A stretch of DNA of 64,000 bases from Marinitoga aeolica (GTDB lineage: Bacteria; Thermotogota; Thermotogae; Petrotogales; Petrotogaceae): contig NZ_CP069362.1 in assembly GCF_029910535.1 (NCBI RefSeq), positions 1,054,001-1,118,000 on the forward strand. Direction: 5' to 3'. A program made the translations under genes and the position numbers. How positions within the stretch are numbered: position 1 is the stretch's first letter; every line of letters begins with the position of its first letter. The notes beneath the pieces were generated by a model that was not told where the DNA came from, ran no database searches, and worked only from the letters and a program-made list of their open reading frames with translations. Positions 14,257 through 51,927 of this stretch are shown piece by piece.

Positions 14257-14602
14257 CAGACTGTTGACAAAATAAAATATGAAAAAATAATATGAGAGAA
14301 TCCTTGAAAATTCCCGAAAAAATGTGAATGGAGCCATGTATATCATTGTAATTCAAAAATAAAATGAATGAAAACTCGAAGATTGCCTGAAAAAATTATG
14401 AATAATGGTTTCCAAAATCACAGGGATGTGATTTTGAGTGAAGCCGAGCATGGATGCGAGTCTGAACGGAAACCGAGAATGATTAATTTTTTCAGATCAG
14501 CAATCAAGCGTTTGAATGAGTTTTATTTTGATTACAACTTTGAGGATTTAGAATTTTCACCTGGTGAAGAACATTATTTTATAATTTTCTTCATTTTTTC
14601 AG
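14257..14602. repeat. Long imperfect palindromic repeat element, copy A
   Basis: Opens with CAGACTGTTGACAAA directly after the terminator stem. The two halves are complementary over most of their length. At the centre (14407-14474), GGTTTCC pairs with GGAAACC around an inner hairpin AAAATCACA-GGGA-TGTGATTTT, then GAGTGAAGCCGA, then a mini-hairpin GCAT-GG-ATGC and GAGTCTGAAC. Copies B (22394-22696) and C (24081-24318) share the plan and much of the sequence. No protein-coding gene is supported in this stretch. Confidence 0.8.
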
Positions 14603-44333: not shown

Positions 44334-44353
44334 AGTACACCGAGGTGATAATT

Positions 44354-44716
44354 ATGTGGTTTTATATAGATTTTCATTCACATATTCCTGTATATGCACA
44401 AATAAAAAATAAAATAAAGGAAAAAATTGCTAAAAAAGAAATTCAAAAAGATGAATTTATTCCTTCAATAAGAGTATTAGCTAAAGAAATTGGAGTAAAT
44501 TTAAATACTGTGGCAAGAGCTTATAGAGAGCTTGAACAAGAAGGAATAATAAAATCTGTTAGAGGATCAGGATATATTGTCATAGGTATAGATAAGGATA
44601 GATTGTTAAATGACAAAATAGAAGAATTCAAAAAAGTTGTCCTCTCTGCAAAAAATTTAAAGATAGAGAAAAATAAATTATTAAAGGTAATTGATGAAAT
44701 ATATGGAGGTGAATAA
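44354..44716 (+). CDS. GntR-family regulator, YtrA type
   Basis: 120 aa from ATG 44354 behind GAGGTGAT. Winged HTH at 10-75 (IPVYAQIKNKIKEKIAKKEI ... LAKEIGVNLNTVARAYRELEQEGI) with the VRGSGYIV wing, then a short helical tail and no ligand domain, as in YtrA regulators of ABC operons. It precedes the ABC genes it should repress. Confidence 0.92.
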   Translation: MWFYIDFHSHIPVYAQIKNKIKEKIAKKEIQKDEFIPSIRVLAKEIGVNLNTVARAYRELEQEGIIKSVRGSGYIVIGIDKDRLLNDKIEEFKKVVLSAKNLKIEKNKLLKVIDEIYGGE

Positions 44717-44717
44717 T

Positions 44718-45491
44718 GTGATTTTAAAAGTATCTAATTTAGTAAAAAAATATGGAAATTTAACTGCAGTTAATAATATTTCTTTTGAAGTAAATAAGGG
44801 TGAAGTTTTTGGATTATTAGGACCAAACGGTGCTGGTAAAACATCTACATTAAAATGCATATTAGGTTTAAGAAAAAAAGATAGCGGTAATATTGAAGTT
44901 AATGGAAAAATTGCATATTTACCAGAAAAAAAAGAATTATACAAAAGTTATACTGTAGAAAAAATGATAGAAATAACAGAGTCTATTACAAATAATTTTT
45001 CTAAGGAAAAAGCATATAACTTAATAAATGAATTTAAATTAGATAAAAAAACAAAAATATCTAATTTATCCCACGGAATGCTAACTCAACTATATATTTC
45101 ATTAACTCTTGCACAAGATGCAGACTTATATATATTAGATGAACCAACATGGGGATTAGATCCGTTGATGAGAAATACTATATTAGATTTAATAAGAGAA
45201 TTAACATATGATGGAAAAAGTATATTATACACAAGCCATATACTTTCTGAAGTAGAAAAGATTGCAGATAGAATTGCTATTATGTCAAAAGGAAAAATTT
45301 TAGAAAATGATTATTTAGATGATATAAAAAATAATTATTCTGCAATAGCATTACCAAAAAATGAAAAAACAAAAGGTTATCTATGGAAAGAATTAGAAAA
45401 TGAAAATATATGGATTGTAAAAAGTAGTGAAGGTGAAAAGGTGACTATTGATGAAATATTTGAAGCTATTGTGAAGGGGGAATGGAAATGA
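44718..45491 (+). CDS. ABC transporter ATP-binding protein
   Basis: 257 aa from GTG 44718, 8 bases after GGAGGTG; the ATG at 44691 lies inside the GntR gene. Walker A GPNGAGKTST, signature-like LSHGMLTQLY, Walker B YILDEPTWGLDP, switch His in TSHI. YtrB/CcmA-type subunit that partners the next membrane protein. The signature departs from LSGGQ as often in this group. Confidence 0.92.
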   Translation: MILKVSNLVKKYGNLTAVNNISFEVNKGEVFGLLGPNGAGKTSTLKCILGLRKKDSGNIEVNGKIAYLPEKKELYKSYTVEKMIEITESITNNFSKEKAYNLINEFKLDKKTKISNLSHGMLTQLYISLTLAQDADLYILDEPTWGLDPLMRNTILDLIRELTYDGKSILYTSHILSEVEKIADRIAIMSKGKILENDYLDDIKNNYSAIALPKNEKTKGYLWKELENENIWIVKSSEGEKVTIDEIFEAIVKGEWK

Positions 45492-46243
45492 GAAAAGAAT
45501 TTTTAGATATGAAAGTTAGAGCAATTGTAATTTTTATAATAACTCTTATTTTATTCTTTTCTATTGCTCCATTTCAAAATATTTTACTTGGTGTATTAGA
45601 AAAAAATAAAGCTGTAATTGAAACATATGCAAATAAATTTGGTCTTAATAGTATGATTTCACAATTACATGATTGGAATTTTTATATATTCACACAATGG
45701 TTTGGAAAAAATTTTGGTCAAATGATACCTATTTTTGCAATTATTTTAGCATTTCCTCTTTTTTCAAGAGAAATAGAAAATGGAACTATGGAATTTTTAT
45801 TGGTTAGAAAATCTCGTGATTATGTATTTTATTCAAAAGTTTTTTCAAGTTTAATTATTGGATTTTCTATTATTATAATAGGTAGCATTTTACCAATAAT
45901 ATACTCATTTTTTACTGGAAAAGATTTCTTAAATGAATATGCATTAAAGTATATTGTTCATGGTTTAATTACTGTGTGGTTTTGGAATAATATTACAGTA
46001 TTCTTTTCTATAATTTTCAATGACCAAGTTAAACCAATTTTATCTTCTGCTGGATTATTAGCAATTATTACTGCACTTGGATTCATAAAACCATTAAAAT
46101 GGTTAAATACTTATAGTTATGCATTGGGTGAAAAAATACTATCAGAAGGCAAAATAAATTGGATATATTCTGAAAGCTTATTTGTTGTTGGTGGTTTTAT
46201 ATTATTAGCCAGTTATTATATATTTAAAAACAAAGAAATTTAA
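45488..46243 (+). CDS. ABC-2 type permease
   Basis: 252 aa from ATG 45488, overlapping the ATPase stop (ATGA). Six hydrophobic helices; helix 2-3 region FPLFSREIENGTMEFLLVRKSR carries the coupling-helix motif E-x-x-x-G-T of ABC-2 permeases. Exports an unknown substrate, perhaps a peptide or drug, under control of the GntR protein. Confidence 0.87.
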   Translation: MRKEFLDMKVRAIVIFIITLILFFSIAPFQNILLGVLEKNKAVIETYANKFGLNSMISQLHDWNFYIFTQWFGKNFGQMIPIFAIILAFPLFSREIENGTMEFLLVRKSRDYVFYSKVFSSLIIGFSIIIIGSILPIIYSFFTGKDFLNEYALKYIVHGLITVWFWNNITVFFSIIFNDQVKPILSSAGLLAIITALGFIKPLKWLNTYSYALGEKILSEGKINWIYSESLFVVGGFILLASYYIFKNKEI

Positions 46244-47527: not shown

Positions 47528-47851
47528 ATGATAGTAACAACAGTTGGATATGTTCCAGGATACGAATTTGAGGAAGTTTTAGGTGTAGTTATAGGAAACA
47601 CTGTTCATTCAAAACATTTAGGAAGAGATATTGCTGCTGCTTTTAAGACTTTAGCTGGTGGTGAAATTAAAGGATATACAGAAATGCTTACAGAAGCAAG
47701 AAATGTTGCATATAACAGGATGATTGATGAAGCAGAAAAATTAGGTGCAGACGCTATTATAGGTATGAGATTTTCAAGCTCCGCTGTAATGCAAGGTGCT
47801 GCTGAAATACTTGCTTACGGTACTGCTGTAAAATTAAGAAAAAAGGATTAA
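47528..47851 (+). CDS. YbjQ/UPF0145 family protein
   Basis: 107 aa from ATG 47528 (AAGGGGG upstream). Strong family pattern: TTVGYVPGYEFEEVLGVV, GRDIAAAFKTLAGGEIKGY and EKLGADAIIGMRF. It is a pentameric ring protein of unknown role (PF01906). Last gene of the GntR operon; the transcript continues into an AT-rich region without a strong terminator. Confidence 0.92.
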   Translation: MIVTTVGYVPGYEFEEVLGVVIGNTVHSKHLGRDIAAAFKTLAGGEIKGYTEMLTEARNVAYNRMIDEAEKLGADAIIGMRFSSSAVMQGAAEILAYGTAVKLRKKD

Positions 47852-48036
47852 TTAAAAAATTAATGTTTTTGTGTTATTTTGTTAATTTTCTTTAATGTTA
47901 TATAGATTTTAGTTTATAATAATAAATAATATGACGTAATTAGCTATAATCAATATTAGTTCTTTTTTTCTCTTTTTTTATTATGTGTTATTATAGGATT
48001 GTATAAAAATATAAATTTTCGAGAGGAGGTTATCAC

Positions 48037-48132
48037 ATGTTAATTAAAAGATTATTTGCGCTCACATTATCAGATAGTGGGAATAGTGTGTCTATTTTCT
48101 GTGATAACCTTGCTCACATCAATTATTATTGA
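48037..48132 (+). CDS. 31-residue leader peptide
   Basis: ATG 48037 behind a strong GAGGAGG. It starts MLIKRLFALTL and ends in AHINYY. Its codons 22-25 form the central pairing arm of the attenuator, so ribosome position would decide which hairpin forms. Not like a functional enzyme; no homologue recognised. Confidence 0.7.
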   Translation: MLIKRLFALTLSDSGNSVSIFCDNLAHINYY

Positions 48133-48149
48133 TGATAAAGTATTTAATT

Positions 48150-48183
48150 TGGGCTATGGTTATCACACCATAGCCCATTTTTT
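48150..48183 (+). terminator. Attenuator terminator hairpin
   Basis: 10-bp stem TGGGCTATGG / CCATAGCCCA, loop TTATCACA, then six T. It would stop transcription before the ABC exporter genes. Confidence 0.85.
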
Positions 48184-48244
48184 GTTTTGTATGGGCTATG
48201 GTATATACCATAGCCCATTATATTTTATAGAAAGGAGTGGAAGA

Positions 48245-48280
48245 ATGATTTTAAAATTTGTAAGGTGGGTTTTTAATTAA
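48245..48280 (+). CDS. 11-residue second leader ORF
   Basis: ATG 48245 behind AAGGAGTGG; peptide MILKFVRWVFN. It lies between the second hairpin and the next small gene. Coding is supported only by the ribosome site. Confidence 0.4.
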   Translation: MILKFVRWVFN

Positions 48281-48307
48281 CGAAATTGTGGAAAAGGGGG
48301 TGATTTT

Positions 48308-48430
48308 ATGTTTGAAAAAAAGAAAAAGGTTTATAACAAAAATAATAAACCAAAATCTTATTATGAAGGTTTTAATGAAATGGAAAAAATTAAAGACTTA
48401 TTATTAGAACTCAAACGATGCAATTATTGA
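48308..48430 (+). CDS. Small protein (40 aa) before the ABC exporter
   Basis: ATG 48308 behind GGGGGTGAT. The N-terminus is very basic (MFEKKKKVYNKNNKPK) and the C-terminus helical (EMEKIKDLLLELKRCNY). It is placed directly before the exporter genes, like BmrB-type small ORFs. Function unknown. Confidence 0.6.
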   Translation: MFEKKKKVYNKNNKPKSYYEGFNEMEKIKDLLLELKRCNY

Positions 48431-48448: not shown

Positions 48449-50179
48449 ATGAAAAGTATATTAAAATATGTATTTAATCAAAAAAAGTTTATATTAATAG
48501 CTGCAATAGGTATGATAGGTGGTGTAGCTGCTGAATTAATACTTCCATATTTAAATAAAGTTGTTATTGATAATATAATTATCAACAAACAAACGAATTT
48601 ATTGTTCATAACTTTATTATCCATATTTTTTATCACCATATTCAGAGCATTAATGGGTTATGTTCAAGAATTTACTTTTGATTATGTTGGTTCAAGAATA
48701 AGTAAATCATTAAAATATGATGTTTTTAAACATATACAAAAATTATCATTTAAATATTTTGATAAGACAAATACAGGAGAATTAATGTCAAGAATTAGTG
48801 AAGATATTGATAATATATGGATGGCATTTGGTTTTGGTATTGGGTTAGCTATTGAATTTTCATTATATTTTATTTTAGGTAGTATTGTATTATTCTATTT
48901 AAATTGGAAATTAGCATTAATTAGTTTAATATCTGCACCGTTTATAGCTTATTTAGCAACAAAATTAGAAAATGAAATAGGAAAAGCTTTTGATAAGATT
49001 AGTGATCAAACTGCTGTTATTAATACAACAGCACAAGAAAATATTTCTGGTGTAAGATTAGTTAAAGCATTTGCAAGAGAAAAACATGAAATATTGAAAT
49101 TTTTGAAATTAAATGATGAGAATTATAATTTAAACATTATGAAATCAAGAATATGGGGTAAATATTTTCCAACAATAGAATTTTTAGGAAATGCTGCTTT
49201 GATTTTAGTAGTCACAATAGGAGGTATGTTTGTTATCAATGAAAATATATCTTTAGGTACATTAGTTGCATTTAATGGCTATATGTGGATGATTGTATGG
49301 CCAATGAGATTAATTGGATGGTTATCAAACATTTTATCTCAAGCAAATGCATCTGCTAAAAAAATTGAAAAAATATTTAATGAAAAAGAAGAAAATTATG
49401 ATGGAATTAATTTAGAAAATGTAAAAGGTACATTAGAATTTAAAAATGTAAGTTTTAAATACGAAAATGAATATGTATTAAAAAATATTAATTTTAAAAT
49501 TGAAGCAGAAAAAACTTTAGCTATTATGGGACCTACAGGTTCCGGAAAAAGTACTTTAATTTCTTTAATATCCAGATTCTACGAAGATTATGAAGGTGAA
49601 ATATTACTCGATGGCATAAATATAAAAGATATTTCATTAAAATCATTAAGAAAGAATATTAGTTATATTTTCCAGGATACATTTCTATTTTCTGAATCTG
49701 TAAAAGAAAACATTAAATATGGAAATGAAAATGCTACTGATGAAGATATTATTAATGCATGTATTGAAGCTCAAGCACATGATTTTATTATTAATTTACC
49801 AGAAAAATATGATACCGTTGTAGGAGAAAGAGGACTTGGGTTATCTGGAGGTCAAAAACAACGTTTAACAATAGCTAGAGGATTATTAAAACATGCTCCT
49901 ATTATTATATTTGATGATGCTACGTCCGCACTTGATATGGATACAGAATATGAATTATTGAAAAGTATATATTCTAAAGAAAAACAAAATACAAAAATCA
50001 TTATAGCTCATAGGATATCTGCTGTAAAAAATGCTGATGAAATTATTTTCTTAGAAAATGGCGAAATAGTTGAAAGAGGAAATCATGAGGAATTATTAGA
50101 GAAGCGTGGAAAATACTATGATATATTTAAAGAACAATTTAAAGACTTTGAAGATTTAGTAAGAGATGAGGTGATCTAA
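48449..50179 (+). CDS. Heterodimeric ABC multidrug exporter, subunit with degenerate Walker B (TM287/BmrC-like)
   Basis: 576 aa, six membrane helices and a nucleotide-binding domain. Walker A GPTGSGKST (361-369), canonical signature LSGGQ (465-469), Walker B ends IIFDDATS so the catalytic Glu is Asp490. Exactly this substitution marks the degenerate half of heterodimeric exporters such as T. maritima TM287. It pairs with the next gene, one base overlap. AGGAGG ribosome site; controlled by the leader attenuator. Confidence 0.93.
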   Translation: MKSILKYVFNQKKFILIAAIGMIGGVAAELILPYLNKVVIDNIIINKQTNLLFITLLSIFFITIFRALMGYVQEFTFDYVGSRISKSLKYDVFKHIQKLSFKYFDKTNTGELMSRISEDIDNIWMAFGFGIGLAIEFSLYFILGSIVLFYLNWKLALISLISAPFIAYLATKLENEIGKAFDKISDQTAVINTTAQENISGVRLVKAFAREKHEILKFLKLNDENYNLNIMKSRIWGKYFPTIEFLGNAALILVVTIGGMFVINENISLGTLVAFNGYMWMIVWPMRLIGWLSNILSQANASAKKIEKIFNEKEENYDGINLENVKGTLEFKNVSFKYENEYVLKNINFKIEAEKTLAIMGPTGSGKSTLISLISRFYEDYEGEILLDGINIKDISLKSLRKNISYIFQDTFLFSESVKENIKYGNENATDEDIINACIEAQAHDFIINLPEKYDTVVGERGLGLSGGQKQRLTIARGLLKHAPIIIFDDATSALDMDTEYELLKSIYSKEKQNTKIIIAHRISAVKNADEIIFLENGEIVERGNHEELLEKRGKYYDIFKEQFKDFEDLVRDEVI

Positions 50180-51927
50180 TGAAGTTTGAAAAAATAAATA
50201 CCGTTTTTAGAATATTTAAATATTTAAAACCATTTATACCAAAAACTATTTTAGTTATATTTTTAATGGTAACAGTTATGGTAATTAATTTAATTAATCC
50301 TTATTTTTTTAAAGTGGCTATTGATGATTATATATCTAATAAAGACATAAGAGGTTTAATTATTATTGGTGGAATATTATTATTATTAAATATTATTGCT
50401 TTAGTTTTATCAAGAATAAGAATTGTAGAAATGGGAAAGATTACTAATAAGATTGTATTGAATATACGTCATGAATTATATGAACATATACAAAAATTAT
50501 CTTTTTCATTTTTTGATAGTCGTCCTGTGGGTAAAATATTAGCCAGGGTTGTAAATGATGTAAATTCATTAGAACAATTATTTTCTAATAGTATTACCAG
50601 TTTAATACCAGAATTATTAACTTTGATCTTTGTTGCTGGAATCATGTTCTATATGAATTATAAACTTGCATTAGCTTCTATGATTATTTTACCCTTATTA
50701 ATATTTGGATTATTTTTAATAGAAAGTATAAGTAGAAAAAGATGGATGGAATATAGGAATAACAGGTCTGAATTAAACGCTTTTACACATGAGGATATTT
50801 CGGGTATTAGAGTTGTTAAATCATTTACTGCAGAAAATAAGACAAATAGAAAATTTAAGTTTTTAACAGATAAAATGATGAATTCTTTTGTAAATGCTGT
50901 TAAGGTTAATGATTGGTTCTGGGCAATGGTTTTTATATCCTGGGGAATTGGAAGCGTATTAGTATTTTATTTAAGTGTTAAAATGATTGATTTAAATCAA
51001 GTTACTGTAGGTACTGTTGTTGCTTTCGTTGGATATATTGGAATGTTTTGGAGACCTATAATGAATTTAAGTAATTTCTATAATTCATTGGTTACTAATA
51101 TTTCGGCAGGTGAGAGAATATTTGAAATTTTAGATACAAAACCAGATATTGTAAATCCAAAAGATGCTAAAATAATGCCAAAAATAAAAGGTGAAGTTGA
51201 ATTCAAAAATGTTACTTTTGCATACGATAGAGAAATTGTATTGAATAATGTATCTTTTAAAATCAAACCTGGTGAAACTATTGCTTTGGTTGGACCAACA
51301 GGAGCAGGAAAAACAACAATAGTAAATTTAATTAGTAGATTTTATGATCCACAAAAAGGTCAAATATTAATAGATGGTCATGATATTAAAAAGGTTGATT
51401 TAGAATCATTACGTTCTCAAATGGGAATTATGCTACAAGATACATTTTTATTTTCTGATACAATAAAAAATAATATTAGATATGGAAAATTAGATGCTAC
51501 TGATGAAGAAATAATAGAAGCAGCTAAAGCTGTACATGCACATGATTTTATAATCAAATTAGAAAAAGGATATAATACTGATGTAAATGAAAGAGGGGTT
51601 AGATTATCAATTGGTGAAAGACAATTAATATCCTTTGCAAGAGCATTATTAGCAAATCCAAGAATATTAATTCTTGATGAAGCTACTTCTAATATTGACA
51701 CATATACAGAAAAATTAGTACAGGATGGAATTAAAAAATTATTAAAGGGTAGAACATCATTTGTTATTGCTCATAGGTTATCTACAATTAGGAATGCTGA
51801 CAGAATATTCTATATTGATAATGGAGAAATTCTTGAAGTAGGTAATCATGAAGAATTAATGGCTAAAAAAGGTCATTATTATAATCTATATATTTCACAA
51901 TTTAAATTTTTAGAATTAGGAGCATAA
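50179..51927 (+). CDS. Heterodimeric ABC multidrug exporter, catalytic subunit (TM288/BmrD-like)
   Basis: 582 aa. Six helices, Walker A GPTGAGKTT (372-380), Walker B ILDEATS with catalytic Glu501. Its signature is altered to LSIGE (476-480), so the nucleotide site formed by this signature and the partner's Asp490 is the inactive one, while its own Walker B with the partner's LSGGQ is active. This reciprocal pattern confirms the pairing with the previous gene. Confidence 0.93.
   Translation: MKFEKINTVFRIFKYLKPFIPKTILVIFLMVTVMVINLINPYFFKVAIDDYISNKDIRGLIIIGGILLLLNIIALVLSRIRIVEMGKITNKIVLNIRHELYEHIQKLSFSFFDSRPVGKILARVVNDVNSLEQLFSNSITSLIPELLTLIFVAGIMFYMNYKLALASMIILPLLIFGLFLIESISRKRWMEYRNNRSELNAFTHEDISGIRVVKSFTAENKTNRKFKFLTDKMMNSFVNAVKVNDWFWAMVFISWGIGSVLVFYLSVKMIDLNQVTVGTVVAFVGYIGMFWRPIMNLSNFYNSLVTNISAGERIFEILDTKPDIVNPKDAKIMPKIKGEVEFKNVTFAYDREIVLNNVSFKIKPGETIALVGPTGAGKTTIVNLISRFYDPQKGQILIDGHDIKKVDLESLRSQMGIMLQDTFLFSDTIKNNIRYGKLDATDEEIIEAAKAVHAHDFIIKLEKGYNTDVNERGVRLSIGERQLISFARALLANPRILILDEATSNIDTYTEKLVQDGIKKLLKGRTSFVIAHRLSTIRNADRIFYIDNGEILEVGNHEELMAKKGHYYNLYISQFKFLELGA

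Follow-up and report, generated by a model that had tools for sequence, protein, structure and literature searches.

A putative ribosome-mediated transcription attenuator with same-stem tandem terminators ahead of a heterodimeric ABC exporter operon in Marinitoga, with equivalent leaders in other Petrotogaceae and in Clostridia

Introduction

How might transcription of a multidrug-type exporter operon be controlled when the operon is preceded by a short, apparently translated leader and two closely spaced terminator hairpins? This question is raised by a locus of Marinitoga aeolica contained in a 64,000-nucleotide stretch of DNA (hereafter the window, i.e., the whole stretch that was analysed; its genome is denoted G000), in which a YbjQ-like gene (end at 47851) is followed by a leader of ~450 bases and then by an ABC exporter operon (48449-51927). 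Attenuators of the trp type are governed by a 1:2, 2:3, 3:4 pairing logic with three ribosome states. The present element has this logic in common with them; however, its leaders hold no run of regulatory amino-acid codons, and trp-type codon sensing was ruled out because no codon run for one amino acid exists. Likewise, identity with a riboswitch or a known leader was ruled out since Rfam 15 returned no relevant match, either for the window at the gathering threshold or for 11 loci at a cutoff of E 0.5, and the apparent novelty of the sequence that had been proposed for this locus holds against that database.

The element displays a short ORF with a ribosome site ahead of an intrinsic terminator and structural genes, together with mutually exclusive protector, antiterminator and terminator helices. 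Judging from the sequences, it is very probably a ribosome-mediated transcription attenuator and belongs to a wider, uncatalogued set built in the same way, with members among both Petrotogaceae and Clostridia. In this work, we describe its organization, predicted folding, conservation and probable mode of action, and we weigh the alternative explanations.

Organization of the leader and the exporter operon

The operon encodes subunit 1 (48449-50179, + strand) and subunit 2 (50179-51927, + strand) of an ABC exporter of the TM287/288, YheI and Sav1866 type. Both subunits match Pfam PF00664 and PF00005, and the PDB sequences matched by subunit 1 are TM_0288, TM287 and YheI; by these matches the cargo is a heterodimeric exporter of the BmrCD type, in agreement with the multidrug exporter called here in the original prediction. 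The exporter of the window genome is 92% identical to that of Marinitoga lauensis. In the latter species (L011 / L033), subunit 1 is interrupted, its frame being broken after residue ~314 and resuming at 398, and the attenuator is intact. Upstream, a possible extended -10 promoter (TGT TATTAT, 47986-47994, + strand) was recognized by its sequence, with TGTGTTATTAT found at the equivalent position in G003 and G004, and transcription would be expected to start near 48000.

The leader ORF (48037-48132, + strand) encodes 31 aa (MLIKRLFALTLSDSGNSVSIFCDNLAHINYY) and has a strong ribosome site. Its Shine-Dalgarno region constitutes arm 1 (GAGGTTATCACA, 48026-48037, + strand), which pairs with arm 2 (TGTGATAACCTT, 48100-48111, + strand), located inside the ORF; the core of arm 1 is AGGTTATCACA (48027-48037), extending to 12 bp (48026-48037) when one wobble is counted, and that of arm 2 is TGTGATAACCT (48100-48110). 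Arm 2 can alternatively pair with arm 3 (GGTTATCACA, 48158-48167, + strand). The three competing 10-base segments originally described are present, at 48027-48037, 48100-48110 and 48158-48167. The third had been assigned to the terminator loop; it does include the loop, and it also extends into the stem of the first terminator, by three bases at the top of the 5' arm and by one at the top of the 3' arm.

This terminator, T1 (48150-48177, + strand), starts 18 nt past the last base of the leader stop codon and consists of an 11-bp stem (TGGGCTATGGT/ACCATAGCCCA, 48150-48160/48167-48177) followed by TTTTTT, and it was found in all relatives read. A second, terminator-like hairpin, T2 (48191-48218, + strand; arms ATGGGCTATGGTAT/ATACCATAGCCCAT, 48191-48204/48205-48218), repeats the stem sequence of T1, which bears out the duplicated hairpin arms noticed earlier; its T-tract is weak here (TATATTTTAT), and such shared stems occur also in other genera and in Tissierellales. 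The T1 3' arm (48167-48178) can pair with the T2 5' arm (48191-48202) over 12 bp. Two small ORFs follow, as had been anticipated. One is a tiny ORF of 11 aa (MILKFVRWVFN, 48245-48280, + strand) with a good ribosome site, similar to ORFs of 5-12 codons found after T2 in G001, G003, G004, G011 and G013; the other encodes 40 aa (MFEKKKKVYNKNNKPKSYYEGFNEMEKIKDLLLELKRCNY, 48308-48430, + strand), is kept in G002 and G004 and lost in G001 and G003, and matches no Pfam or NCBIfam family.

Chance and folding of the competing helices

For the assessment of chance complementarity, the leader ORF was shuffled while the ribosome site and T1 were held fixed. In the window, the resulting P values were 0.0008 for pairing with the ribosome site, 0.009 for pairing with the T1 loop and 0.0004 for both jointly; the joint value was <=0.0004 in 7/8 genomes from three genera, G011 being the exception (0.047). 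Chance repeats as a source of the arms were ruled out by these shuffles together with conservation. Pattern searches for the arms across the order returned one orphan copy besides the loci already known; the other matches were chance ones within coding genes.

Partition functions were computed at 55 C for nascent RNA ending just past arm 3, with the T1 3' arm still inside the polymerase. For G000, the 1:2 helix had a probability of 0.93 and the 2:3 helix of 0.03 when no ribosome was present; a ribosome footprint on the start codon raised 2:3 to 0.96, and a footprint over arm 2 left neither helix. The switch proposed at the outset, in which a ribosome at the leader start frees the middle arm, is thus reproduced by the folding model when a ribosome is placed there. 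Moreover, with 2:3 held and the RNA extended to the T2 5' arm, the predicted pairing between the T1 3' arm and the T2 5' arm reached 0.90. The other Marinitoga genomes and G007 folded like G000 at 55 C, G004 being intermediate (1:2 of 0.49 without a ribosome). Without a ribosome, 2:3 was favoured over 1:2 in G013 and, at 37 C, also in G001, G002 and G004; in G011 the pairings are weak, and T1 was not abolished in the model when 2:3 was held. The preference for 2:3 in G013 and the retention of T1 in G011 therefore call for caution.

Conservation in Marinitoga and other Petrotogaceae

Five further Marinitoga genomes (G001-G005) share the architecture of G000, as do three other genera of Petrotogaceae (g2, g6, g8). 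In G001-G004 the orthologous exporter is preceded by the same leader. In G005 (L145), leader and T1 survive as an orphan: a tRNA-Asn-like gene follows them and no exporter is present, an apparent loss of the operon behind its leader. Marinitoga leader ORFs comprise 28-35 codons, and their indels are multiples of three.

The 1:2 pairing is kept despite changed sequences in G001, G002, G007, G011 and G013. For instance, the ribosome-site arm of G002 is altered (GGGTATCACA), and the two arms pair instead at TATCACATGAA/TTCATGTGATA (11 bp). In the other three genera the arm sequences differ, and 1:2, 2:3 and T1 persist: in G007, GAGGTAAAGTTAT and ATAGCTTTACCTC form 13 bp, and the T1 loop contributes AGCTATCC as the partner of GGATAGCT; in G013, GAGGTAAGGC pairs with GCCTTGCCTC and TGGATAGCC with GGTTATCCA; and G011 has the weaker pairings GAGGTAG/CTGCCTC and GGATAG/CTATCC. 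The partner of the ribosome site lies just 3' of the T1 partner, or overlaps it, in G007, G013 and G011, whereas in Marinitoga a single segment serves both; the logic is therefore kept while its register has shifted. Compensatory changes were found in the helices, most weakly in G011, and in a cross-genus energy matrix own pairings were strong and most swapped pairings weaker. The original prediction had named absence of conserved pairings among related genomes as evidence against it; instead, the search in these genomes found mutually exclusive pairings conserved with compensating changes between genera of Petrotogaceae, and equivalent pairings are conserved in Tissierellales and Clostridia.

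G011 also shows (L010 735-1044) a stretch resembling the Marinitoga core (GGGAATAGTGTCCCAATTT) in a different frame; downstream of it is a second arm that looks functional, and the first may be an old arm superseded by the newer one.

Equivalent attenuators in Tissierellales and other Clostridia

Among the upstream regions of related exporters in other phyla, that of Tissierella sp. P1 (L072) carries tandem same-stem terminators ahead of the exporter. From Tissierellales and near relatives, 30 orthologous exporter loci were taken. Most of them have a leader in which AAGGAGGTCGTGAAGATG is present, the ORF (20-33 codons) ends in arm CACGACCTATG, and the stems of both terminators read CCATAGG/CCTATGG. 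In a 20-sequence Tissierellales alignment, the 1:2 helix was paired in 99.4% of cells, T1 in 98.1% and the alternative 2:3 helix in 86.9%, and changes on both sides occurred in 13 cells, compared with 3.8 in shuffles. Diverged versions of the first pairing include AGGCCATG (ribosome site) with TATGGCCT in L185 and L188, and AGGTTGCG with CGCAACCT in L184, which is not part of that alignment.

A covariance model of the OFF fold of the Tissierellales/Clostridia attenuator (R1) matched 32/391 genomes of the class Clostridia at E <=0.01, the weakest of which are probably chance matches. The genes behind strong matches encode exporters of this type (with 43-52% identity to the Tissierella protein), EamA-type transporters or small proteins. 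For the class as a whole, 45 clearer members were considered, eight weak or truncated model matches being excluded, and uORF lengths range over 20-42 codons. Two terminator-like hairpins follow the arm in 38/45. Arm 2 falls in all three reading frames (26, 4 and 11 of 41), and is therefore conserved as RNA rather than as peptide, so peptide-level conservation of this arm was ruled out for the wider class. The distance from the arm to the end of the stop codon is most commonly 15 nt (18/53), a spacing at which a terminating ribosome would cover part of the arm. Pairing energies between ribosome site and arm were stronger for own than for permuted partners (P = 5e-5).

The best score of the Marinitoga attenuator under R1 was 24.1 bits (E 0.035 in 100 kb), and an R1 search at genome scale did not find it. 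Direct homology between the Marinitoga and Clostridia elements was therefore set aside, and the claim is limited to a shared design, not common descent. Class-level R1 matches in other Thermotogota (L227-L234) were rejected as attenuators.

Proposed mechanism and alternative explanations

In the mechanism that we favour, the absence of a ribosome would let 1:2 form, and T1 and T2 would terminate transcription. Under normal translation, synthesis of T1 would coincide with passage of the leading ribosome across arm 2, and with that arm hidden T1 would terminate. If ribosomes were instead detained at the opening codons, for example by an antibiotic that targets the ribosome, they would cover arm 1 and leave arm 2 free to pair with arm 3 before the T1 3' arm emerges, and T1 would fail; the unpaired T1 3' arm could then pair with the T2 5' arm, whereby T2 would fail too and the exporter operon would be transcribed. 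The bases that 2:3 occupies are those of the T1 loop and upper stem, so its expected effect is to keep this hairpin from nucleating rather than to compete for the whole stem, and since T1 is more stable than 2:3 at equilibrium, antitermination must be kinetic. The use of the duplicated terminator arms as a route to open T2, like the existence of a widespread class, was absent from the original prediction.

The step at T2 has the strongest competitor. T2 may be a back-up terminator only, resembling T1 through duplication or gene conversion, with read-through in the ON state occurring without any pairing of the T1 3' arm; this is a substantial possibility, if somewhat short of even. The tandem terminators of ermK are a known case for which coupling is not described in the available part of the source (PMC4335068), and the energy matrix for T1 3' and T2 5' arms does not have a clean diagonal among related stems. 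On the other hand, own pairs of these two arms beat permuted ones across the class (P = 5e-5), shared stems persist in many lineages while the stem sequences diverge, and a strong T2 would still block expression after T1 had been skipped unless it were opened.

The nature of the signal admits a second alternative, in which the attenuator is the same and responds whenever translation slows down in general (after a temperature shift, in starvation or when initiation is low), the exporter serving housekeeping or peptide export. No known arrest motif is common to all leader peptides, and clostridial members also stand ahead of EamA-type transporters (a label given by sequence likeness, not by family search), a GNAT-like protein and small proteins, all of which would suit such a signal. 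However, heterodimeric ABC exporters of the multidrug type were the most frequent cargo, and the relatives in logic with proven function, in the available part of PMC4191407 and in PMC10201436, answer to ribosome antibiotics. We consider general slowing possible but rather unlikely, and infer antibiotic sensing by analogy with those systems.

Two further readings would dispense with ribosome-controlled termination. It is improbable that the pairing governs leader translation only, as self-repression through the ribosome site with constitutive terminators: arm 1 coincides exactly with the ribosome site, which 1:2 would sequester, but arm 2 also matches the T1 loop in every genus, and two terminators stand between the leader and the exporter, no promoter being evident downstream of them. 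A ligand- or protein-binding riboregulator, which could explain conservation of arm 2 at the RNA level whatever the reading frame, is very improbable given that an ORF with a good ribosome site, read from the first start codon after that site, stays open through arm 2 in 45/45 members against 7.0 expected from base shuffling, that Marinitoga leader indels preserve the frame, and that neither a conserved aptamer-like core nor an Rfam match was found.

Ribosome-mediated attenuation being the preferred reading, a broader proposal, which we regard as evenly balanced between true and false, is that these leaders form a widespread and uncatalogued class that reads ribosome dwell on the leader start. 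One arm would be contested by the ribosome site and the terminator loop, 'domino' same-stem terminators would be disarmed one after the other by one ribosome event, and drug exporters and small proteins of Thermotogota and Clostridia would be the genes controlled. If true, this would place translation-sensing control of a multidrug exporter in Thermotogota, at the thermophilic end of bacteria, and covariation would define an attenuator design spread over Clostridia and outside every RNA family. Coupled tandem terminators would give a tight OFF and a full ON state from one ribosome event, and the small proteins under shared control would be candidate drug-response factors.

Relation to known systems

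The logic of the element resembles that of the ARE-ABCF uORF and bmrBCD attenuators, the nearest described systems. ARE-ABCF attenuators include those of C. difficile cplR, L. monocytogenes lmo0919/vgaL, vmlR and lsaA; in them, a 5' hairpin (anti-SD element) sequesters the uORF and its start region, a ribosome held on the first codons brings about the antiterminator, and an intrinsic terminator lies ahead of the resistance gene (PMC10201436). Sequestration of the uORF ribosome site by an anti-SD arm is found here as well. However, the uORFs of that group have 3-4 codons and an ABC-F cargo, whereas those described here have 20-42 codons and mostly a heterodimeric exporter, and the uORF crosses the competing arm and is then followed by two shared-stem terminators.

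The precedent cited in the original prediction, bmrB-bmrC/bmrD of Bacillus subtilis, proved apt: according to the available part of the source (PMC4191407), translation-dependent induction by antibiotics was shown for it, and its leader ORF, with terminator, antiterminator and anti-antiterminator, likewise precedes a heterodimeric multidrug ABC exporter. That same part places the bmrB terminator inside the 53-codon leader coding region, unlike the present element, where both terminators come after the stop codon, and describes no tandem terminator. As far as the accessible text of PMC4335068 goes, ermK (cited there as having two adjacent terminators) and mef(E)/mel share with the present element a leader peptide, intrinsic terminator(s), alternative folds and an antibiotic-resistance cargo, and differ in the type of leader peptide (with an MTASMRLR arrest motif in mef) and in the cargo itself. 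In the hflXr / rli80 system, a further precedent for antibiotic-sensing logic, premature termination is likewise controlled through a short ORF together with antiterminator and anti-antiterminator regions, but its ORF has 14 codons and an RLR arrest motif, its terminator is single and its cargo is another (PMC6310831). No description of shared-arm coupling between two terminators was found in the open-access literature, as far as the available portions of these texts extend, and one may exist elsewhere. Coupled tandem terminators and the phylogenetic breadth of the design appear to be new.

Small proteins and neighbouring features

Small proteins of 40-94 aa without a Pfam or NCBIfam family are encoded directly after the attenuator in the window (48308-48430) and in L005, L113, L157 and L221-L226; the clostridial ones often carry a D-x-G-[FY]-x-x-Y-x-[STA]-L-E-[YF] motif and have no adjacent exporter. 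Stand-alone 37-aa genes of other Petrotogaceae (L231 1500-1640, MFKPTYKKLRKNESYYTAYDNLDKELYYFYLENIKRL; L233 1500-1640, MLRSLQKKIKKVESYPTAYDLLSEELWQVYLENIRKL) have their own promoter-like sequence and resemble the 40-aa ORF of the window. Elsewhere in the window, a TwoAYGGAY RNA (Rfam RF01731) scores just over the gathering score at 14365-14520 (+ strand), and a short GntR-type regulator, an ABC ATPase and a permease are encoded at 44345-46243 (+ strand), an arrangement like that of export operons under PmtR-type regulation.
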